Positions 15,629 to 27,827 of a stretch of DNA of 29,114 bases are shown piece after piece; position 1 is the stretch's first letter, and every line of letters starts with the position of its first letter. The position numbers and the translations under genes are program-made. Source of the stretch: a virus. The notes beneath the pieces were generated by a model. The model saw nothing but the letters and a program-made list of their open reading frames with translations, did no database searches and was not told where the DNA came from. The DNA is taken from the IMG/VR virus record IMGVR_UViG_3300042464_000502, positions 1-29,114 of that record, one strand, 5' to 3'.

Positions 15629-16789
15629 TTAAACTATTGTTATTTTACTTTTTGGTTTATCAACAAATTGAAGTACCACATATTTTAAAGCATCTAATAG
15701 ATGGTCTTTACCTGCGGTCTGATTTGTTACATTACCTATTTTATCTTTTTTATATTTGTAGTTTGAAAACTCAGATATTAAATCAAGTGAGTCCTCTTGT
15801 AAATACAATTTGAATTGTTTCATTTTTTGAATACCGTATAGAATACTGGTCTTACTAACAGGTCTTACATTTAAACCATATCGTTTTAATTCAGCAATAC
15901 TCTTAGGTTCTGCAGAATCTGCAACAATATCAATGTTTCTGTCAATTCCAATGTCTTTTAACTTAAACGCTAAATCATCGTTGGTAAGTCCTTTTTCATA
16001 TAACACTTGTTTCACAAATAGATTCTTACCATCAACATGGACTTCAACTACAGCACATTCATCATTACTAAAACCAAAGTCAATACCATAATATTTCTGT
16101 TTGATGTTTTTAGGTAGTTCTGAGAAGGTTTCAGGTTGGATGAATATTTTCTCCCTTGGTTCAACAATAAGTCCCTCAGAATAAATCTTAGCCATATCTG
16201 GGTCGGTATCTACAAGTTCCTTGATTGCTTGAATTGTTCTATCATCTAAAAATGGATTCATCTTCCAAGTTGAATGTAACATTATTCCATTTTCCTTATT
16301 CTCATATTCTAATCCCCACCAATCAATTGGTATTTCTGGGTTATACAATGCAATAATATATTTGGAACAACGAATATCAAGTTGAATAAAACTACTTTTG
16401 TCTACCGTATTAACCTCATCAACAATGATTATATCAGATTTAAAACCTTTTAGTTTACCTGTTGAGTCATCTAAACCAATAAACCTGATTACAGATTGAT
16501 TTGGGAATGTATATATAAAGTCTTGTTTATGTAGAACACCATCATCCCAAATACCCAATGATTCCATAATATCTTTGAAATCAGGTAACATTGTATGTCG
16601 AAGTGATACTTGTGTTGCTCTAGCAATTGTAACTGATAACTTTGGTGTTTTTATACATTCCAGTATAACATACTGTATTGCTGTTATAGTTTTACTTGAA
16701 CGAGAACTACCTCGTAAAAATATATATCTATAGTCACTCAACACAGAGTTATTCAGATGTTCCCAAACTTCAGTTACTTTAAACTTCAT
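15629..16789 (-). CDS. terL: Terminase large subunit
   Basis: This 386-aa packaging motor has an N-terminal ATPase with a Walker-A-like GSSRSSKT at residues 27-34, a Walker B strand 'DIIIVDE' at 119-125, and a coupling region. The C-terminal RNase-H-like nuclease has Asp237 (YGIDFGFSNDE), Asp291 (VADSAEPKSI) and Asp362/Asp366 (KDHLLDALKY), all in the expected order. The ATG at 16789 is chosen over an in-frame upstream start because it overlaps the stop of the preceding small gene (ATGA), the segment before it is absent from the family's usual start, and the 386-residue length fits a complete large terminase. It cuts concatemeric DNA and drives it into the prohead through the portal. Confidence 0.95.
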   Translation of the reverse strand: MKFKVTEVWEHLNNSVLSDYRYIFLRGSSRSSKTITAIQYVILECIKTPKLSVTIARATQVSLRHTMLPDFKDIMESLGIWDDGVLHKQDFIYTFPNQSVIRFIGLDDSTGKLKGFKSDIIIVDEVNTVDKSSFIQLDIRCSKYIIALYNPEIPIDWWGLEYENKENGIMLHSTWKMNPFLDDRTIQAIKELVDTDPDMAKIYSEGLIVEPREKIFIQPETFSELPKNIKQKYYGIDFGFSNDECAVVEVHVDGKNLFVKQVLYEKGLTNDDLAFKLKDIGIDRNIDIVADSAEPKSIAELKRYGLNVRPVSKTSILYGIQKMKQFKLYLQEDSLDLISEFSNYKYKKDKIGNVTNQTAGKDHLLDALKYVVLQFVDKPKSKITIV

Positions 16790-16944
16790 TTTATAAAATT
16801 TACTACCACTAATACACCAATACAATATCCCGTACTTAATGACAGTGCTTGTTTTATTCTTTCACCCCAATTTTTTGCTTCAACAATGTATTTGATAAAT
16901 GGTAATGATAAAAATGGACTTACTCCTGCAAAAACTAACATCAT
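16786..16944 (-). CDS. Small membrane protein, downstream part
   Basis: This 52-aa ORF starts at the tandem ATG ATG at 16944 and overlaps the terminase start by four bases (ATGA), a translational-coupling arrangement. It has two hydrophobic segments (about 2-20 and 34-50) joined by a charged loop (VEAKNWGERIKQA). It is in the same frame as the 29-aa ORF before it (16945-17034), separated only by one TAA codon. Together they read as a single about 82-residue protein with three hydrophobic segments. It may be a functional reinitiated protein or the back half of a gene broken by a nonsense mutation. A holin role is possible but not supported by any specific motif. Confidence 0.62.
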   Translation of the reverse strand: MMLVFAGVSPFLSLPFIKYIVEAKNWGERIKQALSLSTGYCIGVLVVVNFIK

Positions 16945-18369: not shown

Positions 18370-18385
18370 ATAAATATAACGAATT
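18370..18385 (-). promoter_or_regulatory. Possible late promoter element upstream of the structural operon
   Basis: On the minus strand this reads AATTCGTTATATTTAT, 15 bases before the ATG at 18354. The sequence before the fibre gene at 438 has AATTAGTTATATTTAT (445-460), the same 16 bases apart from one. Both genes are the first after a terminator, so a shared start signal is plausible. The region is very AT-rich, which limits the weight of the match. Confidence 0.35.
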
Positions 18386-18434
18386 ATTTTTGGTAAGTAA
18401 ATCGTTTATATATCAAATAAATAAATATAATGCA

Positions 18435-18463
18435 TAAAAAAACCTCACCATTTCTGATGAGGT
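18435..18463 (-). terminator. Terminator after the leftward HNH gene
   Basis: A six-base stem (ACCTCA at 18442-18447 with TGAGGT at 18458-18463) is followed on the minus strand by about eight T. It lies 90 bases past the stop of the 18553-19095 gene and should end that small leftward operon before the structural operon begins. Confidence 0.72.
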
Positions 18464-18552
18464 CTAAAAAAAATTTAAAATGAAAGATTCGTATGGATTA
18501 AAATCCTATGGTACAAATATATATATAAAAATTGATAATTCCAAATTTTTGA

Positions 18553-19095
18553 TTATATATGTTTCCAAATTACTCTTTTTATTATACTTGATATTTGTCC
18601 TTGTCTAATATTAAATTTTTTAGATAATGCTGTTGAACCAAATTCTTCATGTCTTGGAATATAATTTTGTCTAATCCATAATACATCTTTTTCAGTTAAT
18701 TTTGACCTTCCATGTTTTTCTCCTTTTCTATTAATTGACATTTTTAATTTGGTATCTTCAGAATGTTTAAACCCTAAAGGACCTATCATTAATCCATTTT
18801 TCTTTGCTCTTTTTTTATTTTCTTCAGTAGTTACCCATTCCAAATTTGAAATATGGTTATTTGATTTATTACTATCACGATGGTCAACTTCTGGTAAGTT
18901 ATTTGGATTTTGATTATATATTTCAGCAACAAGTCTATGCATATAAAATGTACATTGTTTTTTATTAATCCATAAACTAACTTGATGATAACCACTATTA
19001 ATAAATTGTTTCAATTCCTTGGTCTTACCAAACATAGTTGAAATGACTCTCCCGTCCTCTGTGACGAAGTAATCTGTATCCCGGAATCGTTTCAT
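18553..19095 (-). CDS. HNH homing endonuclease (NUMOD4 + HNH_3 type)
   Basis: This 180-aa protein has an N-terminal NUMOD4-like strand region (FRDTDYFVTEDGRVIS), an HNH core with H53 (MHRLVAE), D71-H72-x-D74 (VDHRDSNK), and N79/N80 with 'HISNLEWVTTEEN', then a NUMOD3-like motif 'HSEDTKLKMSINRKG' and a C-terminal HTH (TEKDVLWIRQNY ... IIKRVIWKHI). This is a free-standing homing endonuclease that cuts a target and spreads by repair. It is closely similar in layout to the rightward protein at 22483-22947. It follows the 115-aa gene by three bases and is ended by a terminator, so the two likely form one operon. Confidence 0.9.
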   Translation of the reverse strand: MKRFRDTDYFVTEDGRVISTMFGKTKELKQFINSGYHQVSLWINKKQCTFYMHRLVAEIYNQNPNNLPEVDHRDSNKSNNHISNLEWVTTEENKKRAKKNGLMIGPLGFKHSEDTKLKMSINRKGEKHGRSKLTEKDVLWIRQNYIPRHEEFGSTALSKKFNIRQGQISSIIKRVIWKHI

Positions 19096-19098
19096 ATG

Positions 19099-19446
19099 TT
19101 AGAATAATTTAAGTTGGTCAGAACTCATCTTTTTAACTTTTCTTTTACTTCTGTTTTTGGCTTGCATCTTCATATTAATCCAGACGCAGTTTTCTTTGGA
19201 ATAGTGTTGGGTATTGTCTACCCTGCCTAACGTGTAATTACCATGAGTTGGATGTTTTGCCGGTTTCTTCCCCATATCTTGAATGAAGTTAAGGAATGAT
19301 TCTTTCCAACTACTGGAAACTTTAATTCCTTTTTTACCAGAATATTGATAATCTTTGCAATTACTGTTGTAACATCTGTTCAGCATATTTGTATATGACC
19401 TGTACTCTGTTTGATAATAGAGTTTTAAATTCTTTAAATTATCCAT
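19099..19446 (-). CDS. Small HNH-like/AP2-associated phage nuclease family protein
   Basis: This 115-aa protein has the pattern 'YRSYTNMLNRCYN', then a 'YSGKKGIKVSSSWKESFLNF' segment, then 'YTLGRVDNTQHYSKENCVW' and a Gln-x2-NR close. In phages I know this layout as a small HNH-derived family often sited among homing endonucleases. No catalytic triad can be confirmed. It starts 14 bases after a near-consensus Bacteroidota promoter (19467-19499) and next to the phased CTAG array, so it is probably the first gene of a controlled leftward operon with the HNH gene. Confidence 0.72.
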   Translation of the reverse strand: MDNLKNLKLYYQTEYRSYTNMLNRCYNSNCKDYQYSGKKGIKVSSSWKESFLNFIQDMGKKPAKHPTHGNYTLGRVDNTQHYSKENCVWINMKMQAKNRSKRKVKKMSSDQLKLF

Positions 19447-19466: not shown

Positions 19467-19499
19467 CAAAGATAATATTAATTTTCTATATTCTAGAAA
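19467..19499 (-). promoter_or_regulatory. Bacteroidota-type promoter for the leftward HNH operon
   Basis: The minus strand carries TATCTTTG (19467-19474), an exact TAnnTTTG -7 box, with TTTC 21 bases upstream (19496-19499) at the place of the usual TTTG -33 box. Spacing of 19-21 bases fits the Bacteroidota consensus. The leftmost CTAG box overlaps the upstream element. It would start transcription about 12 to 20 bases before the gene at 19446. Confidence 0.68.
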
Positions 19500-19632
19500 T
19501 AGTTATTAACATTTTATATACATTCTAGAATTATATATAATTTTATATTATTTTCTAGATTGCTCTAGTGCTTTCTAGATTGCTTTATATATTTCTAGTT
19601 ATTTTCTAGTTTGCTTTATATATTTTCTAGAT
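19491..19632. promoter_or_regulatory. Helically phased array of eight CTAG boxes
   Basis: Eight CTAG tetramers start at 19493, 19525, 19555, 19565, 19575, 19595, 19606 and 19627. The steps are 32, 30, 10, 10, 20, 11 and 21 bases, all near multiples of the DNA helical repeat. Two sit in the palindrome TTCTAGAA. Three are followed by ATTGC or TTTGC. The array begins over the upstream element of the leftward promoter and ends 15 bases before the structured region. It is a good candidate operator, iteron-type origin element or packaging site. Confidence 0.6.
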
Positions 19633-19646
19633 TTAAATAAGTTACT

Positions 19647-19802
19647 GTTGATGAGGAGCAGAGTTCGTCCTATCCCACACCTTGTTAAGTGTAGAATAGA
19701 ACGCTGACTAATCTTTCTGTTAGATTGAGTGCTGTTTGAAGTATCGCTAAAAAACTTCAACTTGAAACCAACATACGATAATTTAGTTTACCGTTCATCA
19801 AC
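19647..19802. ncRNA. Candidate structured non-coding RNA (multi-branch fold)
   Basis: A closing stem joins GTTGATGA (19647-19654) to TCATCAAC (19795-19802) perfectly. Inside are three hairpins: 19663-19702 (GTTC...TAT with ATAGAAC, plus an inner ACAC/GTGT stem), 19707-19730 (ACTAATCT with AGATTgAGT, one bulge), and 19736-19760 (TTGAAGT with ACTTCAA, loop of 11). The composition is richer in G and C than the flanking DNA and no ORF is present. This is a small four-way junction. Transcribed strand is unsettled: one extra pair forms as G-U only on the minus strand. Confidence 0.5.
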
Positions 19803-19861
19803 TCTCGTTTCTTTGTTCCGAGTCTGTACTGTGATGAATATCCCCCAGTGTACAATTAAAA

Positions 19862-19963
19862 GATATAAACCTGAGTGCATGTAGAGCGTCGTTTATATCA
19901 GTTTTTCAATTTGAATTAAAATTGATATTAGATTAAGAATTCCTCCACGGAGTCAAATCTAAT
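19862..19963. other. Two further hairpins in the non-coding region, one terminator-like
   Basis: Hairpin one is GATATAAAC (19862-19870) with GTTTATATC (19891-19899), a nine-base perfect stem with a 20-base loop. On the plus strand it is followed by AGTTTTTC, like a weak terminator. Hairpin two is ATTAGATT (19927-19934) with AATCTAAT (19956-19963), whose loop holds CTCC/GGAG around 19943-19952 and the CCUCC sequence. The rest of 19447-20092 shows only AT-rich spacer and the leader of the 20093 gene. Confidence 0.5.
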
Positions 19964-20092
19964 TTGATATTCATAAGTATATGTAATTTTTTTTAAAAAA
20001 CAAACTCTTTCCTATAAATATATCAAAAAATACAAAAAAACTATTTGTAATACAAACTTTTGATAAATTAACATATATTTATAATAAAAGGT

Positions 20093-20458
20093 ATGAAAAG
20101 TAAAAAACAATTTGAAAGATTATTGAGTAGAAGAATCATGGGGGAACAGGGAGAATGGTTGGTATTTTGTCGTGTATGTGGACACTTCAAACCTGTTACT
20201 GAATTTTATAAACGTACAGATTCAAAGTGGGGTGTAGACTCTCGTTGCAAGGAGCATTACAAATCATACAAGAAAAAGACAGATGAACCAGAAGACCCTG
20301 AAATGAGTTATCTAAAACTTGACAATATCAAGGAATCTGATTTCCAGAATGTACAGGAATTTCTAACCCAACTTGGATTTTCATTCCAAACAGAAAAAAC
20401 AATACATGAACAATTCATGGACAAATATAAACTTAAATTAAAAATAACAAAAAAATGA
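20093..20458 (+). CDS. Zinc-finger protein, first gene of the rightward block
   Basis: This 121-aa protein has a basic N-terminus, then a C-x2-C...C-x2-H finger (CRVCG at 26-30 and 'DSRCKEHY' about 50-57) with the turn 'FKPVTEFYKR'. The pattern matches a small zinc-binding module widespread in phages and related to treble-clef nuclease knuckles. The acidic C-terminal half shows no known domain. It overlaps the next gene by ATGA, so they are co-translated. It may bind DNA and control early expression, but that is inference. Confidence 0.68.
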   Translation: MKSKKQFERLLSRRIMGEQGEWLVFCRVCGHFKPVTEFYKRTDSKWGVDSRCKEHYKSYKKKTDEPEDPEMSYLKLDNIKESDFQNVQEFLTQLGFSFQTEKTIHEQFMDKYKLKLKITKK

Positions 20459-20856
20459 TTGGAGCTAAAAAATTAAATCTAAAAAAAGTAAATGAGATTA
20501 AAACCTTATTTGAAACAACAGAACTAAGTGATGGTGACATCGCAGAGAAATATAACGTTAGTCGTATTTTAATCAATTTAATCCGTAATGGTAAAAGATG
20601 GAATGATAATAGAGAGAAATTAAGGATGCAACAGGACCAGATAGATTTCTTACCTTTTAAGATAACAAAACTTTTGGGTACTGAATTCTCATCTCGAATC
20701 TACCCCTTGGTGACCGAGACAAGTGTATTCTATGTTCTTATCCATTATATTGATAATAATGTCACCAGCGAGTTAAAAACAACCCTATTCGAAGAAATTC
20801 CAACCGATGAAGTATTAGAAAGATTACATAACAAATTTTTACGATTGGTTTCGTAA
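20455..20856 (+). CDS. Helix-turn-helix protein, possible regulator
   Basis: This 133-aa protein begins with an HTH at about 8-50 (LKKVNEIKTLFETTELSDGD, then IAEKYNVSRILINLI). The HTH resembles the C-terminal HTH in both HNH endonucleases of this window, suggesting one shared domain used in different proteins. The C-terminal half is mixed and unfamiliar. Its start overlaps the zinc-finger gene (ATGA at 20455). It is a plausible DNA-binding regulator of the CTAG array, though nothing in the sequence proves this. Past its stop lies a tandem repeat (20877-20899) and a strong terminator. Confidence 0.7.
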   Translation: MIGAKKLNLKKVNEIKTLFETTELSDGDIAEKYNVSRILINLIRNGKRWNDNREKLRMQQDQIDFLPFKITKLLGTEFSSRIYPLVTETSVFYVLIHYIDNNVTSELKTTLFEEIPTDEVLERLHNKFLRLVS

Positions 20857-20876
20857 ATAAAAAGTAGTATATTTAT

Positions 20877-20904
20877 CTATGATAGGTTTTCTATTATAGG
20901 TTTT
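20877..20904. repeat. Two near-identical 14-base repeats, each with a small palindrome
   Basis: CTATGATAGGTTTT (20877-20890) is followed directly by CTATTATAGGTTTT (20891-20904). Each starts with a CTATnATAG palindrome. It lies between the HTH gene stop and its terminator. It may be an operator or a chance tandem duplication. Confidence 0.4.
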
Positions 20905-20923
20905 TTTACTTTTTTTTACTCCA

Positions 20924-20963
20924 CCCCTAACAGTTTTTTGTCATTCTGTTAGGGGTTTTTTTT
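20924..20963 (+). terminator. Strong rho-independent terminator
   Basis: A ten-base perfect stem, CCCCTAACAG with CTGTTAGGGG, spans a 12-base loop and is followed by eight T (20956-20963). It ends the first rightward pair of genes and isolates the promoter at 20982-21012. Confidence 0.95.
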
Positions 20964-20981
20964 AAATGTGGATAACTTTTA

Positions 20982-21012
20982 TTTGGAGATTTGGAAAGTA
21001 GTAGTATCTTTG
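20982..21012 (+). promoter_or_regulatory. Bacteroidota-type promoter for the methyltransferase operon
   Basis: TTTG at 20982-20985 is separated by 19 bases from TATCTTTG (21005-21012), matching the TTTG-N19-TAnnTTTG consensus of Bacteroidota housekeeping promoters. The ATG of the next gene is 22 bases downstream, and the leader is A-rich without a Shine-Dalgarno. It is the clearest host marker in the window. Confidence 0.82.
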
Positions 21013-21034
21013 TCGGACTAAAAAAATAAATAAA

Positions 21035-21535
21035 ATGGAAAATTTACAAACAGAATCACAACCCTATGTATTATTATCTTATGCAGATAATAAAGACATT
21101 CCGTACACAGTTACAGATGAATTTATTAATTATGAAGGTGATGATGAAGTGACCTTTATTAGGGGTTCATTTATGCATTATCATTATCGTGAATTTTTAT
21201 CAAAAATGAATATTGACGATGTTACAAACATGTTGTTCAATCTTTTTGGTGGTCAAAAAGAAAAGACTCAATGTGCAAAAATGATAAATGATATGTACGT
21301 TAAAACTGAAGGTACTCGTCTTATAGATAGTAAGACCATTACTTCTATTCGTAATCCAAAATTAATAAATAATCTTTTTTTGTTAAGGGTTAATAGTGAA
21401 GATTTGGACTTGATTGAACAAACTCAAATAAAATTTAACACAGGTGATATTAACATGAACCAAATTAAATATGATGGTGTCAACACAATTCATTATGAAC
21501 CGGTTAAAGAATATTGGACAATAGATAATGTGTAA
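21035..21535 (+). CDS. Unknown soluble protein, first gene after the rightward promoter
   Basis: This 166-aa protein has no membrane segment or recognised motif. It is moderately acidic and contains an aromatic stretch (GSFMHYHYREFLSKM) and a helix (NMLFNLFGGQKEKTQCAKMI). It opens the operon that leads to the methyltransferase. The early promoter suggests an early or host-takeover role, but there is no specific evidence. Confidence 0.72.
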   Translation: MENLQTESQPYVLLSYADNKDIPYTVTDEFINYEGDDEVTFIRGSFMHYHYREFLSKMNIDDVTNMLFNLFGGQKEKTQCAKMINDMYVKTEGTRLIDSKTITSIRNPKLINNLFLLRVNSEDLDLIEQTQIKFNTGDINMNQIKYDGVNTIHYEPVKEYWTIDNV

Positions 21536-21562
21536 AAGTAAAAGAACTTAAATAATATAGAT

Positions 21563-21775
21563 ATGGATAATAGAAATGAATCAATCGTTAGACAGTCATC
21601 ATTAAAATTTGTGGCGGATTACTGCAAACTCATTGGAATGCCGATTACCTTAAAAGAAACAGTAAGACTCACAGAAGTTATTTCAGACTACTGTTTGAAT
21701 GGTTACACAACAAAGTTGGGAGAGACTCTTGATAAAGTAGATGAGTATTTCCTAAAGAAGTTTGAGGAAGATTAA
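21563..21775 (+). CDS. Small helical protein of unknown function
   Basis: This 70-aa protein is helical throughout and polar (SSLKFVADYCKLIGMPITLK, then VRLTEVISDYC and a charged end). It lies 27 bases after the previous gene and its stop is three bases before the methyltransferase ATG. The tight fit supports a real gene. No family is recognised. Confidence 0.65.
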   Translation: MDNRNESIVRQSSLKFVADYCKLIGMPITLKETVRLTEVISDYCLNGYTTKLGETLDKVDEYFLKKFEED

Positions 21776-21778
21776 AGA

Positions 21779-22486
21779 ATGAATATTTTGGTGAATGGGG
21801 ATTGTCTAAGTGAATTAAAAAAAATTGAATCTAATTTAATTGATTGCATAGTCACATCCCCGCCGTACAATAAAAAGGGTTTAATCGGTAAGGTAAAACC
21901 TGGTAATCAAGTATGGAAAAAATTCAACATAGATTACAATTCATATGGTGATAATTTGTCTGAAGAAGATTACCATCAATGGATGATTGATATATTGAAT
22001 GAGATGTACAGAATTATTAAACCAGATGGTTCAATTTTTTTCAATCACAAACCACGGAGACATAGAAATAAGGTACACCTACCCACGGACTTCATTTGTA
22101 AAAGTAAATTAGATGTATATCAACTTATTATATGGAATCGTTTGTCCTCACCAAATATCAGGAAAGATGTTCTATTACCTTGTACTGAACATATATATTG
22201 GTTGGTTAAGGGTAAACCCAAAGTTTTTAAAAACCAAATTGATAATAAATTTCATTCTGAGGTTTGGAACATTAGTCCTGAAAGGAACAGTAAACATCCT
22301 GCACCATTTCCCGAAAAACTTGTTGAGAATTGTATTCTTTTAACAACGGAAGAAAATGATTTAATATTAGACCCGTTCATGGGTTATGCGACAACTGGTA
22401 TTGTTGCAAATAAATTTAATAGAGATTTTTTTGGAATTGAAATTGATTTGGAATACTTTGAAGTAAGTAAAAAAAGATTAATATGA
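21779..22486 (+). CDS. DNA methyltransferase (amino-methyltransferase, TSPPY type)
   Basis: This 235-aa enzyme has the catalytic TSPPY at residues 26-30 and the AdoMet-binding motif DPFMGYATTG at 198-207, followed by 'FFGIEID'. The order, catalytic motif first and binding motif last, marks a beta-class amino-methyltransferase, which transfers a methyl group to N4 of cytosine or N6 of adenine. SPPY does not settle which. The length is short but complete. No restriction gene is adjacent, so it is probably an orphan enzyme protecting phage DNA from host restriction or regulating genes. Its end overlaps the HNH gene (ATGA). Confidence 0.93.
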   Translation: MNILVNGDCLSELKKIESNLIDCIVTSPPYNKKGLIGKVKPGNQVWKKFNIDYNSYGDNLSEEDYHQWMIDILNEMYRIIKPDGSIFFNHKPRRHRNKVHLPTDFICKSKLDVYQLIIWNRLSSPNIRKDVLLPCTEHIYWLVKGKPKVFKNQIDNKFHSEVWNISPERNSKHPAPFPEKLVENCILLTTEENDLILDPFMGYATTGIVANKFNRDFFGIEIDLEYFEVSKKRLI

Positions 22487-22947
22487 AACAATTCAAGGAT
22501 ACTCCGTATTATGTTACGGAAGATGGTAGAATATTTAATTCAGAAAAAGAATTAAGTTGTAGTTTGACAAATAAAGGATATAAAACCTTTAGAGGTTGTA
22601 TTAATGGAATTAGAAAACATATAGTAATACATAGGTCAGTAGCTGAATGTTATATTCCAAATCCTGATAATTTACCACAAGTAAATCATATTGATGGAGA
22701 TAAGTTAAATAATCATATTTCTAATCTTGAATGGACTACTAATCAAAAGAATAGAGACCATGCTGTTCAGAATGGATTACACGCTAAAGGTGAAATGATG
22801 GGTAATTCAAAATTTACCGAAGAAGATATTAGATTTATGAGACAAAACTATGGTAAATTAACATATAAACAATTAGGTCAAATGTTTAACACAAGTGGTT
22901 CTCGTATTTGGAAAATTGTTAAACGTCAAACTTGGAAACACATTTAG
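22483..22947 (+). CDS. HNH homing endonuclease (NUMOD4 + HNH_3 + HTH)
   Basis: This 154-aa protein begins with a NUMOD4-like segment (KDTPYYVTEDGRIFNS), then an HNH_3 core with H50 (IHRSVAE), H69-x-D71 (VNHIDGDK), and 'NNHISNLEWTT' ending near 86. The C-terminal HTH runs from about 109 to the final 'KIVKRQTWKHI'. It is paralogous in layout to 18553-19095. It overlaps the methyltransferase stop by four bases, so the gene may have landed behind the methyltransferase without disrupting it. Its stop overlaps the convergent 92-aa gene by three bases. Confidence 0.9.
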   Translation: MKQFKDTPYYVTEDGRIFNSEKELSCSLTNKGYKTFRGCINGIRKHIVIHRSVAECYIPNPDNLPQVNHIDGDKLNNHISNLEWTTNQKNRDHAVQNGLHAKGEMMGNSKFTEEDIRFMRQNYGKLTYKQLGQMFNTSGSRIWKIVKRQTWKHI

Positions 22948-23223: not shown

Positions 23224-23877
23224 TTAATTAATTCCTGGTGAATTGGTTGCTCCCGGAGAATACCATTGTGGGAAACCACTTGACTCACAGAACCAACTAT
23301 CTCCACATCCAACTCTACCTGTTCTGTTTCTACTATTCCAATAAAATCCTGCTCCTGGCATTGTGATTGGTGAATCAAATGGCGTTGATGTATCAGGAGG
23401 TAATTCTCCATTGTTTAAGTTACCAAAGAAATATGGTGCGTATAATGATGCTCTGAATATCAAATGTCTTCTCAAAAGATTATCATTGAACTCTGCTTGT
23501 TGTTTTGCAGATTCTTTTAAGTGTAAATATAATTTGAAATCAATCGGATTACCTTGTTCACTTCTATTTTGAACTAAACCAACAGACATAAATTTAACCA
23601 AGAAGTTATCTAATGCTGTGTAGTATGAATAAGATAATAATGCTGGTTGAATATATGTATCCAACAAGTTCTTATAGTTAACATTTGCAGGGTCACTAAT
23701 AGTATTTGCTGCAACTAAACTCAATATATGTTCGTACAGATTTGTACCAAGACTTTCCTGTATTTGTATATTTTGTGATTGCAGTATTGAGAATCTCAAC
23801 TCTGAACTTTGAACATTGTCAGAAATTGCAGTATATGTTTTTAATAATTCTTCAGATACTAATAAAACGTTATTCAT
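23224..23877 (-). CDS. Putative head-tail connector/adaptor-like protein
   Basis: This 217-aa protein directly follows portal (TAATG overlap), the usual place for a neck adaptor. Residues 1-170 are helical and hydrophobic on one face (LLVSEELLKTYTAISDNV, a segment with 'FSILQSQNIQIQESLG', then 'LLDTYIQPALLSYSYYTALD'). The last about 45 residues are Gly/Pro/Ser/Arg-rich and probably extended. The family is one I recall near portals in Bacteroidota phages, but the name is uncertain. It may link portal to the tail completion proteins. Confidence 0.6.
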   Translation of the reverse strand: MNNVLLVSEELLKTYTAISDNVQSSELRFSILQSQNIQIQESLGTNLYEHILSLVAANTISDPANVNYKNLLDTYIQPALLSYSYYTALDNFLVKFMSVGLVQNRSEQGNPIDFKLYLHLKESAKQQAEFNDNLLRRHLIFRASLYAPYFFGNLNNGELPPDTSTPFDSPITMPGAGFYWNSRNRTGRVGCGDSWFCESSGFPQWYSPGATNSPGIN

Positions 23878-24947
23878 TATAATATTTGGTTTTGTTCTAT
23901 AACTAAGTTTATTTCTTGTTCAGGATAAATTAATTCAATTAATGGTTTCAATTCTCTGTTCATGAAGTTTTGTAATGGTTTAATTGATGTATTCATAAAT
24001 AGTTTGTATGTTGTATCTAGTTGTTCAGATGAACTTGTAAATCCACCCGGGTTTGGTAAACCAATAAGAGAACCATCAATAATCTTGTGACCACTCATAA
24101 TTTGTTTTTGAACTAACTCAAAAATATCTTTAAAATATCCTGATTCAACATTACTTTGAATTTGTGTAATATCAGGTTTGTTTTCACTTTCGCCGTAGGA
24201 TACAATTACACGACCAGCGTTTGATGAACCAACATATCTATCTTCAATGTTACGAAGGATTTGATTTTGTTCGTTTTGTGAATCAGGAGCAACTGAGTTA
24301 AAGTGTACCCATAATCCAGGACTTGCACCGTTTTGAATATTTGCTAAGTTGAATACAGTAATCTCGTGGTTCAATTTAACATCATTGATTACGCTCAACC
24401 AATCGGGTGCTCCATAATAATCATAACCGCTTTGATATTGTTTGATATGAACGATTTGTCTATCTGTGTAATTTTTTGGGTCAAACTCACAAAACTCAAC
24501 CATTCCTGATTTTCTCCAATTAATCCAATCTCTGCAATACAAAAATTTTGTTACATCATCACCCATTTGTTCGGGACGTTTGAGTCTCATGTAACGAGAA
24601 GGAATAACATGTAATCCTGCAAGTCCTTGTGACCTATCTTGTTTCCACACAACCTCAAGAAATAAGTTACCAGTTGTTATAAACTCATAGAACATCTTTC
24701 TTGCTGCATCATTTATTGTTTCTTTACTATTGATTTGATAATCTGTTATATATCCCATTCCAACAGCGTTATCCACTTTTGAACGGATACATGCGTTTTG
24801 TATTGGACTTGCGTCGTTTAACAAATATAATTCATTTACGAACATATTGTCTTCACCCCAGCGAATGAATATTTCATTGCGGTTAAAAACTTCTCTGAAA
24901 CTTGTTAGAGTTGTTTTATTAAAATTTAGTTTTTCTATGTTTATCAT
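23877..24947 (-). CDS. Portal protein
   Basis: This 356-aa protein has the portal pattern 'SPIQNACIRSKVDNAVGMGY' near the N-terminus, a conserved helix-strand section 'GNLFLEVVWKQDRS', 'VIPSRYMRLKRP', and 'YYGAPDWLSVINDVKLNHEI' followed by 'NIQNGASPGLWVHFN'. The last pair is characteristic of PBSX/SPP1-type portals. A helical C-terminus follows (LFMNTSIKPLQNFMNRELK). It forms the dodecameric ring at the packaging vertex and works with TerL, although here it is encoded far from the terminase genes and near the end of the leftward block. It overlaps both neighbours by a single base (TAATG). Confidence 0.9.
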   Translation of the reverse strand: MINIEKLNFNKTTLTSFREVFNRNEIFIRWGEDNMFVNELYLLNDASPIQNACIRSKVDNAVGMGYITDYQINSKETINDAARKMFYEFITTGNLFLEVVWKQDRSQGLAGLHVIPSRYMRLKRPEQMGDDVTKFLYCRDWINWRKSGMVEFCEFDPKNYTDRQIVHIKQYQSGYDYYGAPDWLSVINDVKLNHEITVFNLANIQNGASPGLWVHFNSVAPDSQNEQNQILRNIEDRYVGSSNAGRVIVSYGESENKPDITQIQSNVESGYFKDIFELVQKQIMSGHKIIDGSLIGLPNPGGFTSSSEQLDTTYKLFMNTSIKPLQNFMNRELKPLIELIYPEQEINLVIEQNQIL

Positions 24948-25397: not shown

Positions 25398-27827
25398 TTA
25401 ATCTAAAGTATCTATCCATTCTACATTAACAATATCACCATTTGTTGGTGTTACTGGTGGGTAATAATCTTCACTTAAATAAGCTCCCGTTGCAATAAAT
25501 GTATTTGTATTATTTGTGTATGTATCTACGGTTGTTCCATTAACTTTAGTAATGACAGTATATGATGTTCTATAAAAAGGACCTCCACCACTTGCTTTAT
25601 AAATTCTTCGAATTACATACAAAGAACCACCTAAACAAGCACTTGTTAATGTTTGTGATACTAACCCTGCGGTTCCAGTACTTGATGATGAACTAAACGG
25701 TGTAAGAGTTATTGTACAACCAGCTACACTCATTGATGCATCCATTAAATCAAAGTCTTTATTAGTACCAATTGAAGTTCCATTAAATCTATATTTATAT
25801 TCTAATGTAAATGAAGGTGAAGATGGGGTTACCGTTGGAGTTATTGTTGGGGTTACTGTTTGAGTTGGTGTAATTGTTGTTGTTGGAGTAATTGTTGGAG
25901 TTATAGTTGGGGTAATTGTTGGGGTAATTGTTTGAGTTGGTGTAATTGTTGATGTTGGAGTAATTGTTGATGTTGGAGTAATTGTTGGGGTTACTGTTTG
26001 AGTTGGTGTAATTGTTGATGTTGGAGTAATTGTTGGTGTTGGTGTAGGTGTTGGTGATGGTGGAGGTGGACATGTTCCCCAAACTGGTGTATGTGGTGCT
26101 GTTAATGCTGAACCTGTTTTAAAGTTTGATGGTAATGTTGGTATCAATGTAACACACCATCCTGATAGGTCTTGGTCAAATACAGTTGCTCCATTAAACA
26201 TCTCACTCATGTCAGAAACTTGTGAAACGTCCCACATTGAAATGTCTTGGTCTAATACACTTGCGTTTTTAAACATGTTCGACATCGTTGTCACATTCGA
26301 GGTATCCCAATTATTCATTGGCTGGTTATATGATGATGCATTGTGGAATGCAAGAGACATATTAGTCACCCCGCTTATAATCCAGTTATTTAAACTATAG
26401 TTAAAGTTTGATAAACCAAAGAATGTTTGTTCCAATGTTGTAATACTATGGGTATCCCATCCGCTAATATCTTGGTTGAATTGTGAGAATGCAAACATAC
26501 CACTCATATTTGTAACATTACCCATATCCCACATTGAGATATCTTGGTTGAACTGAGTATTATTAAACATAAAAGTAGTGTTTGTAACCTGTGATGTTGT
26601 CCATCCACTCAATGGTTGATTGAATTGATATGCGTTTCTGAATATACCATCAAAATTCGTTACTCCTGACACAATCCAGTTGTTCATCGGCTGATTAAAT
26701 ACAGTTGCTTGATTAAACATACCAAAAAATGTAGTTAAACTAACCGTGTTCCAAGTGTTTATATTTTGATTGAAAGCGTATGCCAATAAGAACATCAAAT
26801 TCATGTTTGTCACACTACTTACGTTCCAATTACCAATCGGCTGATTAAACACTTGACAGAATAAGAACATTGTTTCCATTGTTGTAATTGTACTTGTATT
26901 CCAATTGTTGATTGATGAATTGTATGTAAGTATACTACATCCATTGAACATAGATGTCATATCAGTTACACCAGATAAAATCGGTGAGTCTGTAGCTGTA
27001 ATATCTAAATTGACACAATCTTTAAATGATTGATTCATTGTTGTCCATGGAATATTACCCCATTGACTAACATTTGTAATTTTTTGACAATCTGAACCAC
27101 CTTGACCATTCCAAAGATGAGGGAAGTTTCCACTTATTTTAACTGTGTAAGTTCCACCACTTGTATAAACGTGAGTTACGGTTGAAATACCACTACCTGT
27201 AATTGGTTCACTATTTCCATCTCCCCAATCAACTGTTGCTGCGTATGTAGGACCGTAAGGATTCAATGGTAAAACATATGTATTACTTGCTGAACCAGGT
27301 TTGGTTGTATCAACTGTCATTATAAATCCAGCAAATGCTACCGGTGATGATGTAGGAGTTGGAGTAATTGTTGCTGTTGGTGTAATTGTACGAGTAGGTG
27401 TTATACTTGGAGTTATTGTTGTTGTAGGTGTTAATGTCGGGGTTACTGTTTGAGTTGGAGTTATTGTTGTTGTAGGTGTTAATGTCGGGGTTACTGTTTG
27501 AGTTGGAGTTATTGTAGATGTAGGAGTTAGTGTTGGAGTTACTGTTTGAGTTGGTGTAATTGTAGATGTAGGAGTTAGTGTTGGAGTTACTGTTTGAGTT
27601 GGAGTTATTGAATTGGTTGGCGTAATGGTTGGTGTTGGCGTTAATGAAGACGTTACACTTGGAGTTGGTGTATTTGTTGGAGTACGAGTTGGTGTTAATG
27701 TTGGGGTTGCTGTAGGAGTAGGTGATGGTGGAATTGGAGGTCCCCAAAATTCACCATTAATGTCATTTAATGCACGTTCTTCACCCAAATAATTTGACCA
27801 CTTTCTGTTATAAAATATTCTACCCAT
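25398..27827 (-). CDS. Tail-associated adhesin with BspA/DUF285 leucine-rich repeats and PT linkers
   Basis: This 809-aa protein has an N-terminal anchor (about 1-32), a long Pro-Thr linker (about 33-160) with four 16-aa repeats, a PKD-like strand segment (about 165-245, '[11 protein letters not shown]' and '[18 protein letters not shown]'), and about eleven BspA-type DUF285 repeats from about 260 to 575 (each near '[18 protein letters not shown]'). A second PT linker (about 590-680) leads to a C-terminal beta domain (about 685-809). BspA repeats are surface adhesion modules of cells and are found also in phages. It probably binds the host surface or a polysaccharide. It overlaps the 75-aa gene by eight bases. 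Confidence 0.85.
27411..27617. repeat. Tandem 48-bp repeat in the BspA gene linker
   Basis: Near-identical 48-base units begin at 27442, 27490, 27538 and 27586 (anchor GTTACTGTTTGAGTTGG) and encode a 16-residue Pro-Thr motif. A degenerate unit precedes them. Such repeats can change copy number by slippage or recombination and so alter linker length. Confidence 0.82.

Follow-up and report, generated by a model that had tools for sequence, protein, structure and literature searches.

The put elements of HK022 are short two-hairpin antitermination RNAs located where a phage transcript begins, and the pRNA of phi29 is a phage RNA with loop-loop pairing. The GOLLD and ROOL RNAs, often located near tRNA islands, have lengths between about 660 and more than 800 nt, and cages built of RNA alone are formed by other phage RNAs (PMC12286853). 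The RNA described here, which we term class B, resembles GOLLD and ROOL in kind but is a member of neither. Like them, it is phage-encoded, large, supported by covariation, pseudoknotted, partly metagenomic, and of unknown function (PMC12286853). Unlike them, it measures only about 260-330 nt, has no Rfam match, and lies in a divergent early/late control region of a window (the whole 29,114-nt stretch analyzed) in which ARAGORN finds no tRNA genes.

The window is a 29-kb tailed-phage record with genes for a large terminase (TerL; 15629-16825, minus strand) and a portal protein (23877-24947, minus strand), as well as a small block of rightward genes at 20093-22947. The structured RNA region occupies the gene-free divergent stretch between the start of an HNH-type gene (19446) and the start of a zinc-finger gene (20093). 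TerL relatives among cultured phages include phages of Bacteroides, Parabacteroides, and Flavobacterium, and the promoter-like boxes of the window resemble the TTTG/TAnnTTTG type found in Bacteroidetes; on these two grounds, we infer that the host is probably a Bacteroidetes bacterium.

A sequence-only reading had proposed a possible new structured RNA here, to be checked by a covariance search against Rfam and given up if there were neither a transcript nor covarying pairs in relatives. Rfam 15 at gathering score gave no match anywhere in the window, including to GOLLD, ROOL, and OLE, and at permissive thresholds it gave nothing plausible in the region or in two relatives described below (L188 and L192). 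Group I and group II self-splicing intron models also failed to match, despite the HNH genes downstream. BLAST comparison of the region with cultured phages and with plasmids returned nothing relevant, and a limited literature search found no description of a class B RNA. Covarying pairs do occur in relatives, and models built without the window recognize it, so the proposal of a new structured RNA holds. The stems that had been pointed out are all present, namely the 8-bp closing stem, the 9-bp stem, and the 8-bp stem at 19927-19963, and the island is indeed richer in GC than its flanks (0.38 in the RNA core versus 0.27-0.29 in the surrounding 500-base windows). The "three hairpins" within the closing stem correspond only in part to the helices found there, and the remarks on a T run and a CCTCC loop concern the wrong strand, the RNA being encoded on the minus strand.

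This strand assignment is evident from folding. Against shuffled controls, another check the earlier reading had named, the minus-strand RNA over 19640-19980 folds far better than chance (z -5.02, none of 100 shuffles as good), whereas the plus-strand RNA is near chance (z -1.57, 7 of 100 equally good). The minus strand also stands out over 19640-19815 (z -3.44, 0 of 200 shuffles, versus +0.16 for the plus strand) and 19820-19990 (z -2.74), and a repeat test over 19640-19972 gave z -3.9 for the minus strand versus -1.3 for the plus. The strongest helix, of 17 bp, holds several G-U pairs that are possible only in the minus-strand RNA. L192 and L188 do not stand out by folding energy alone (z about -1). 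Small ORFs of up to 53 aa lie inside the RNA; covarying stems argue against a coding role for them.

The TerL relatives share a layout of portal gene, opposite-strand early block, divergent gap, late genes, and terL. Because the early gene beside the gap, which encodes an EndoVII-like zinc-finger protein, is conserved and alignable across relatives, the gap can be taken as orthologous. Searching with this protein yielded 72 loci. In about three dozen of these, the gap is below 150 bp and could not accommodate an RNA of this size; in a minority it is long, and several of these long gaps fold more stably than shuffles. Class B members have in common with the minus strand of the window the motifs GACGCWCU, GCAC, GGGGGA, and GAACAA, in that order, and a scan of a viral collection for this motif string recovered L185, L189, and L192 and added L184 and L188. 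The family thus defined, whose motif order the window meets, comprises six distinct sequences: the window, L189 (= L134), L192 (= L135), L185 (= L106), L184, and L188. Long stretches are 89% identical between L189 and L192 and 87% identical between L185 and L184, which leaves only four independent lineages (the window; L189/L192; L185/L184; L188). All five relatives, representing three lineages, carry the RNA at the orthologous place, opposite the zinc-finger gene, which adjoins the RNA in every class B contig, and directed toward the late genes.

Beyond these members, an exact 18-mer search with the window RNA found only a sister contig that is 99.99% identical. No RNA homologue was found among the closest terminase relatives, whose contigs end before the locus and offer synteny only, and no close prophage relatives were found in bacterial genomes, where TerL is only about 30% identical. 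Two groups of candidates were rejected. L067-L069 lack all but the final two motif elements, and these lie in a stretch that by eye looks like an open coding frame; L068 was not matched by either of the covariance models described next; six of 12 pattern matches (L186, L187, L190, L191, L193, and L194) are GC-rich and lack the rest of the motif.

Evidence for the fold comes from covariance models of the 5' domain (R2) and the 3' domain (R3), which were built from the five relatives only, with the window left out. R2 matches the window at 19904-19797 on the minus strand (42.6 bits, E 1.8e-7) with no other match there, and R3 matches at 19795-19655 on the minus strand (24.4 bits, E 2.3e-5; next best E 0.16), so that the two matches are adjacent, in the correct order, and on one strand. 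In the relatives without the window, 12 of 22 pairs in the 5' half are changed on both sides while 97% of cells are paired, a result reached by none of 500 shuffles; in the 3' half, the corresponding values are 9 of 28 pairs, 89%, and 1 of 500 shuffles. Native strands pair at 95-100% per helix, versus 42-74% when strands are swapped between members in the variable helices, and the covariation extends to G-U pairs and pseudoknots. PK1 and P5 vary little and still pair at 90% after the swap. The relatives were not chosen blind, as the short motifs they share with the window were known beforehand, and only the fit of the remaining fold was blind; moreover, the structures were derived manually from these very sequences, which biases the slid controls in their favor. 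Among 90 loci, neither model found a class B member beyond the training set and the window. That the region forms a structured RNA is nevertheless close to certain. The idea that it represents chance inverted repeats in AT-rich intergenic DNA, which could draw on the near-chance fold of the plus strand, retains practically no probability, being already refuted by the covariation and the blind model matches.

Table 1. Features of the locus and of class A. Kept, pairs kept across members; swap, pairing after strands are exchanged between members.
Feature	Position	Strand	Evidence or remark
Promoter-like site TTTG-N19-TATACTTAT	19973..20004	-	Directly upstream of RNA
Window-specific 5' extension, two hairpins (19963-19927 and 19925-19906)	19905..19972	-	Folding
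Conserved class B core (P1-P8, PK1, PK2)	19647..19904	-	Window-free model matches, covariation
P1, 9 bp (19899-19891 with 19870-19862)	19862..19899	-	Kept 46/46 (6 sequences), swap 74%
PK1, loop-loop pseudoknot (CUCAG 19875-19871 with CUGGG 19848-19844)	19844..19875	-	Kept 30/30, little variation
P2 (UGUAC/GUACA)	19825..19854	-	Kept 29/30, swap 43%
P3 (CUCG/CGAG), conserved loop GAACAAAGAAA	19804..19822	-	Kept 24/24, swap 69%
P4, 8-bp closing stem of 3' domain	19647..19802	-	Kept 34/34; recovered by free folding
P6 (19760-19754/19742-19736) and PK2 (CUAAA 19786-19782 with UUUAG 19751-19747)	19736..19786	-	Pair conservation
P7 hairpin (AAUCU/AGAUU)	19710..19726	-	Kept 30/30, swap 42%
P8, 17-bp hairpin, loop AACA (19703-19687/19682-19666)	19666..19703	-	Folding; inner part covaries in relatives
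Intrinsic-terminator-like hairpin	18440..18465	-	Downstream of RNA and two HNH genes; 1 found, 1.0 expected by chance
EndoVII-like zinc-finger early gene, divergent	20093..20458	+	PHROG endonuclease VII matches; marks orthologous locus
Two HNH-type genes	18553-19095 and 19099-19446		Downstream of RNA
Class A members (L024, L032, L051, L052, L053, then L132, L133, L155, L172, L173, L178)	L024:482-638, L032:5147-5307, L053:4073-4229		

The conserved core (Table 1) spans 258 nt in the window, compared with about 235-245 nt in the relatives. It is preceded in the window by a 5' extension of about 70 nt that is missing in L189 and L192, where the promoter box directly precedes P1. The large loop of P1 contains GACGCUCU...GCAC as well as the 5' strand of PK1, in which the end of this loop pairs with the loop of P2; the relatives have CCUGG/CCAGG or CCUGG/CCGGG at this position. 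Four of the five P2 pairs are changed on both sides across relatives, with a conserved GGGGGA in the P2 loop, and the P3 loop is conserved among members as GAACAARGA. P4, whose strands 19802-19795 and 19654-19647 read GUUGAUGA/UCAUCAAC on the minus strand, encloses P5, P6, P7, and P8. A conserved UUCAAGU precedes P6 (41 of 41 pairs kept, 50% after swap), and PK2 joins the stretch after P5 to the P6 loop (37 of 39 kept, 71% after swap, three of six pairs changed on both sides in relatives). Within the window, confidence is lowest for PK2 and P5: P5 shares two bases with P4, and PK2 faces a competing pairing.

PK1 links two hairpin loops, and pairing within one molecule cannot be distinguished by sequence from pairing between molecules. 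If it were intermolecular, it could build a ring or cage, and the RNA could serve in packaging or assembly as the phi29 pRNA does; RNA-only cages are known from other phage RNAs (PMC12286853). Many relatives, including some with a closely similar terminase, have no room for the RNA, however, and the large terminase of this phage is of the standard type with an RNase-H-like nuclease domain. Class B further differs from the pRNA in being optional in relatives and without an Rfam match, the phi29 packaging RNA family model included. We consider a packaging role very unlikely, and the packaging signal suggested by the earlier reading gains no positive support.

The same reading had also suggested a replication origin. 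Inverted repeats working at the DNA level, in an origin or a regulatory region, would suit the minimum of cumulative GC skew, which falls at the structured RNA region, and the adjoining array of CTAG boxes. The skew, however, also tracks the switch in gene direction, and strand-specific folding with G-U pairs, like covariation that includes G-U pairs and pseudoknots, speaks against an element acting at the DNA level. An origin thus lacks positive support without being excluded, and we give a DNA-level element only a slight chance. The array itself consists of eight CTAG boxes at 19493-19630, between the RNA and the HNH-type gene, and long hairpins in L081:800-1085 and L095:2410-2650 are likewise surrounded by CTAG-rich sequence. 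The gene for a DUF285 protein (25398-27827, minus strand) has strongly positive plus-strand GC skew (25501-27800), unlike most other leftward genes.

In other relatives, the same slot holds a second RNA family, class A, which is marked by two GGACUUAU motifs and found in 11 contigs. Nine pairs are changed on both sides in its alignment (A4), its model (R1) reaches the more diverged members at E values between 1e-17 and 9e-4, and an Rfam search found no match. Most relatives lack the space for an RNA of either family. The two families are alike in their orthologous slot, orientation, promoter box, covarying structure, and absence from Rfam, but their motifs and helices differ and neither family's models match the other. 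The window RNA was rejected as a class A member, since R1 has no match in the region in a default search and reaches only 10.8 bits with filters off.

We also observed a third, small hairpin RNA (L107:3995-4100, L030:490-600, L032:5610-5710, L033, L051, and L158) located ahead of the late genes, with a TATATTTAT box before it and an intrinsic terminator after it. It has an invariant CGUUCUGAUAUACUGUCC and a stem that varies yet remains paired (GAGGUAGU/ACUACCUC, GAAGUAGU/ACUACUUC, GGUUGAAC/GUUCAACC).

The pattern TTTG-N(18-20)-TATAYTTAT has its sole match in the window at the promoter-like site (20004-19973, minus strand), with 0.08 expected by chance, and eight other members drawn from both families have the TATAYTTAT box 7-11 nt ahead of the point where the conserved RNA begins. 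An RNA that begins directly after such a box and runs in the late direction could be a cis-acting leader, the nascent RNA modifying RNA polymerase or ribosomes on its own transcript, for example by put-like antitermination past terminators. Several members do have terminators downstream; in L185, L184, and L024 (class A), one lies 75-150 nt behind the RNA, before any large ORF. None was found between the RNA and the HNH genes in the window, so its transcript could reach those genes and a leader role there is not excluded. Against a leader, most relatives lack the RNA yet have the same late operon layout, and the late genes have TATATTTAT boxes of their own after the terminator-like hairpin (18421-18429 and 18370-18378). 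The gene after the RNA, moreover, varies among members, being an HNH gene in the window, a zinc-finger relative in L189/L192, a GIY-YIG-like gene in L188, and others elsewhere; the RNA is therefore not a leader for one gene, and this variation argues against a one-gene riboswitch. Although a put element is likewise structured and opens a phage transcript, class B is far larger and is optional. We regard a cis-acting leader as unlikely, but a put-like role in cis is not ruled out.

Two observations concern these downstream genes. By eye, the gene behind the RNA in L189 (3473-3847) and L192 (2596-2970) resembles the zinc-finger gene across the RNA. In the window, the HNH gene nearer the RNA matches longer HNH families only over an N-terminal or internal stretch, so a truncated homing endonuclease may have been inserted behind the RNA.

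Because the downstream ORF is not conserved, the RNA is optional, and an unrelated family can substitute for it, we favor, with moderate confidence, an accessory phage noncoding RNA that is structured, encoded on the minus strand, expressed from its own promoter, and active in trans; a riboswitch or an indispensable component of packaging fits these observations less well. In this model, an RNA of about 330 nt would be diffusible and would originate in the divergent early/late control region, where the TTTG-N19-TATACTTAT promoter would drive its transcription. Its pseudoknots would position the single-stranded motifs GACGCWCU..GCAC, GGGGGA, GAACAARGA, and UUCAAGU, which would together offer a surface where a protein or nucleic acid of either host or phage could bind, and the RNA could thereby modulate a host process, such as transcription or defense, or phage gene expression. 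There are no expression data, the function is inferred, and nothing directly shows action in trans or identifies a partner. A host-dependent accessory function is what would be expected of an optional slot able to hold unrelated RNAs. Extending this, we raise only tentatively, as a possibility that may well prove wrong, that the slot is a cassette for exchangeable, unrelated trans-acting RNAs serving as host-specific counter-defense or takeover factors made of RNA; this reading counts at least two RNA families plus the third small hairpin RNA further downstream.

Few large structured RNAs are known from phages, and most of them have no known function. Class B is a new family among them whose fold is well supported, and it comes with a likely promoter and a fixed place in the genome. 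The second family in that slot and the relatives with neither RNA provide natural comparison sets, and the purpose of such phage RNAs would become directly testable once the host is cultured.
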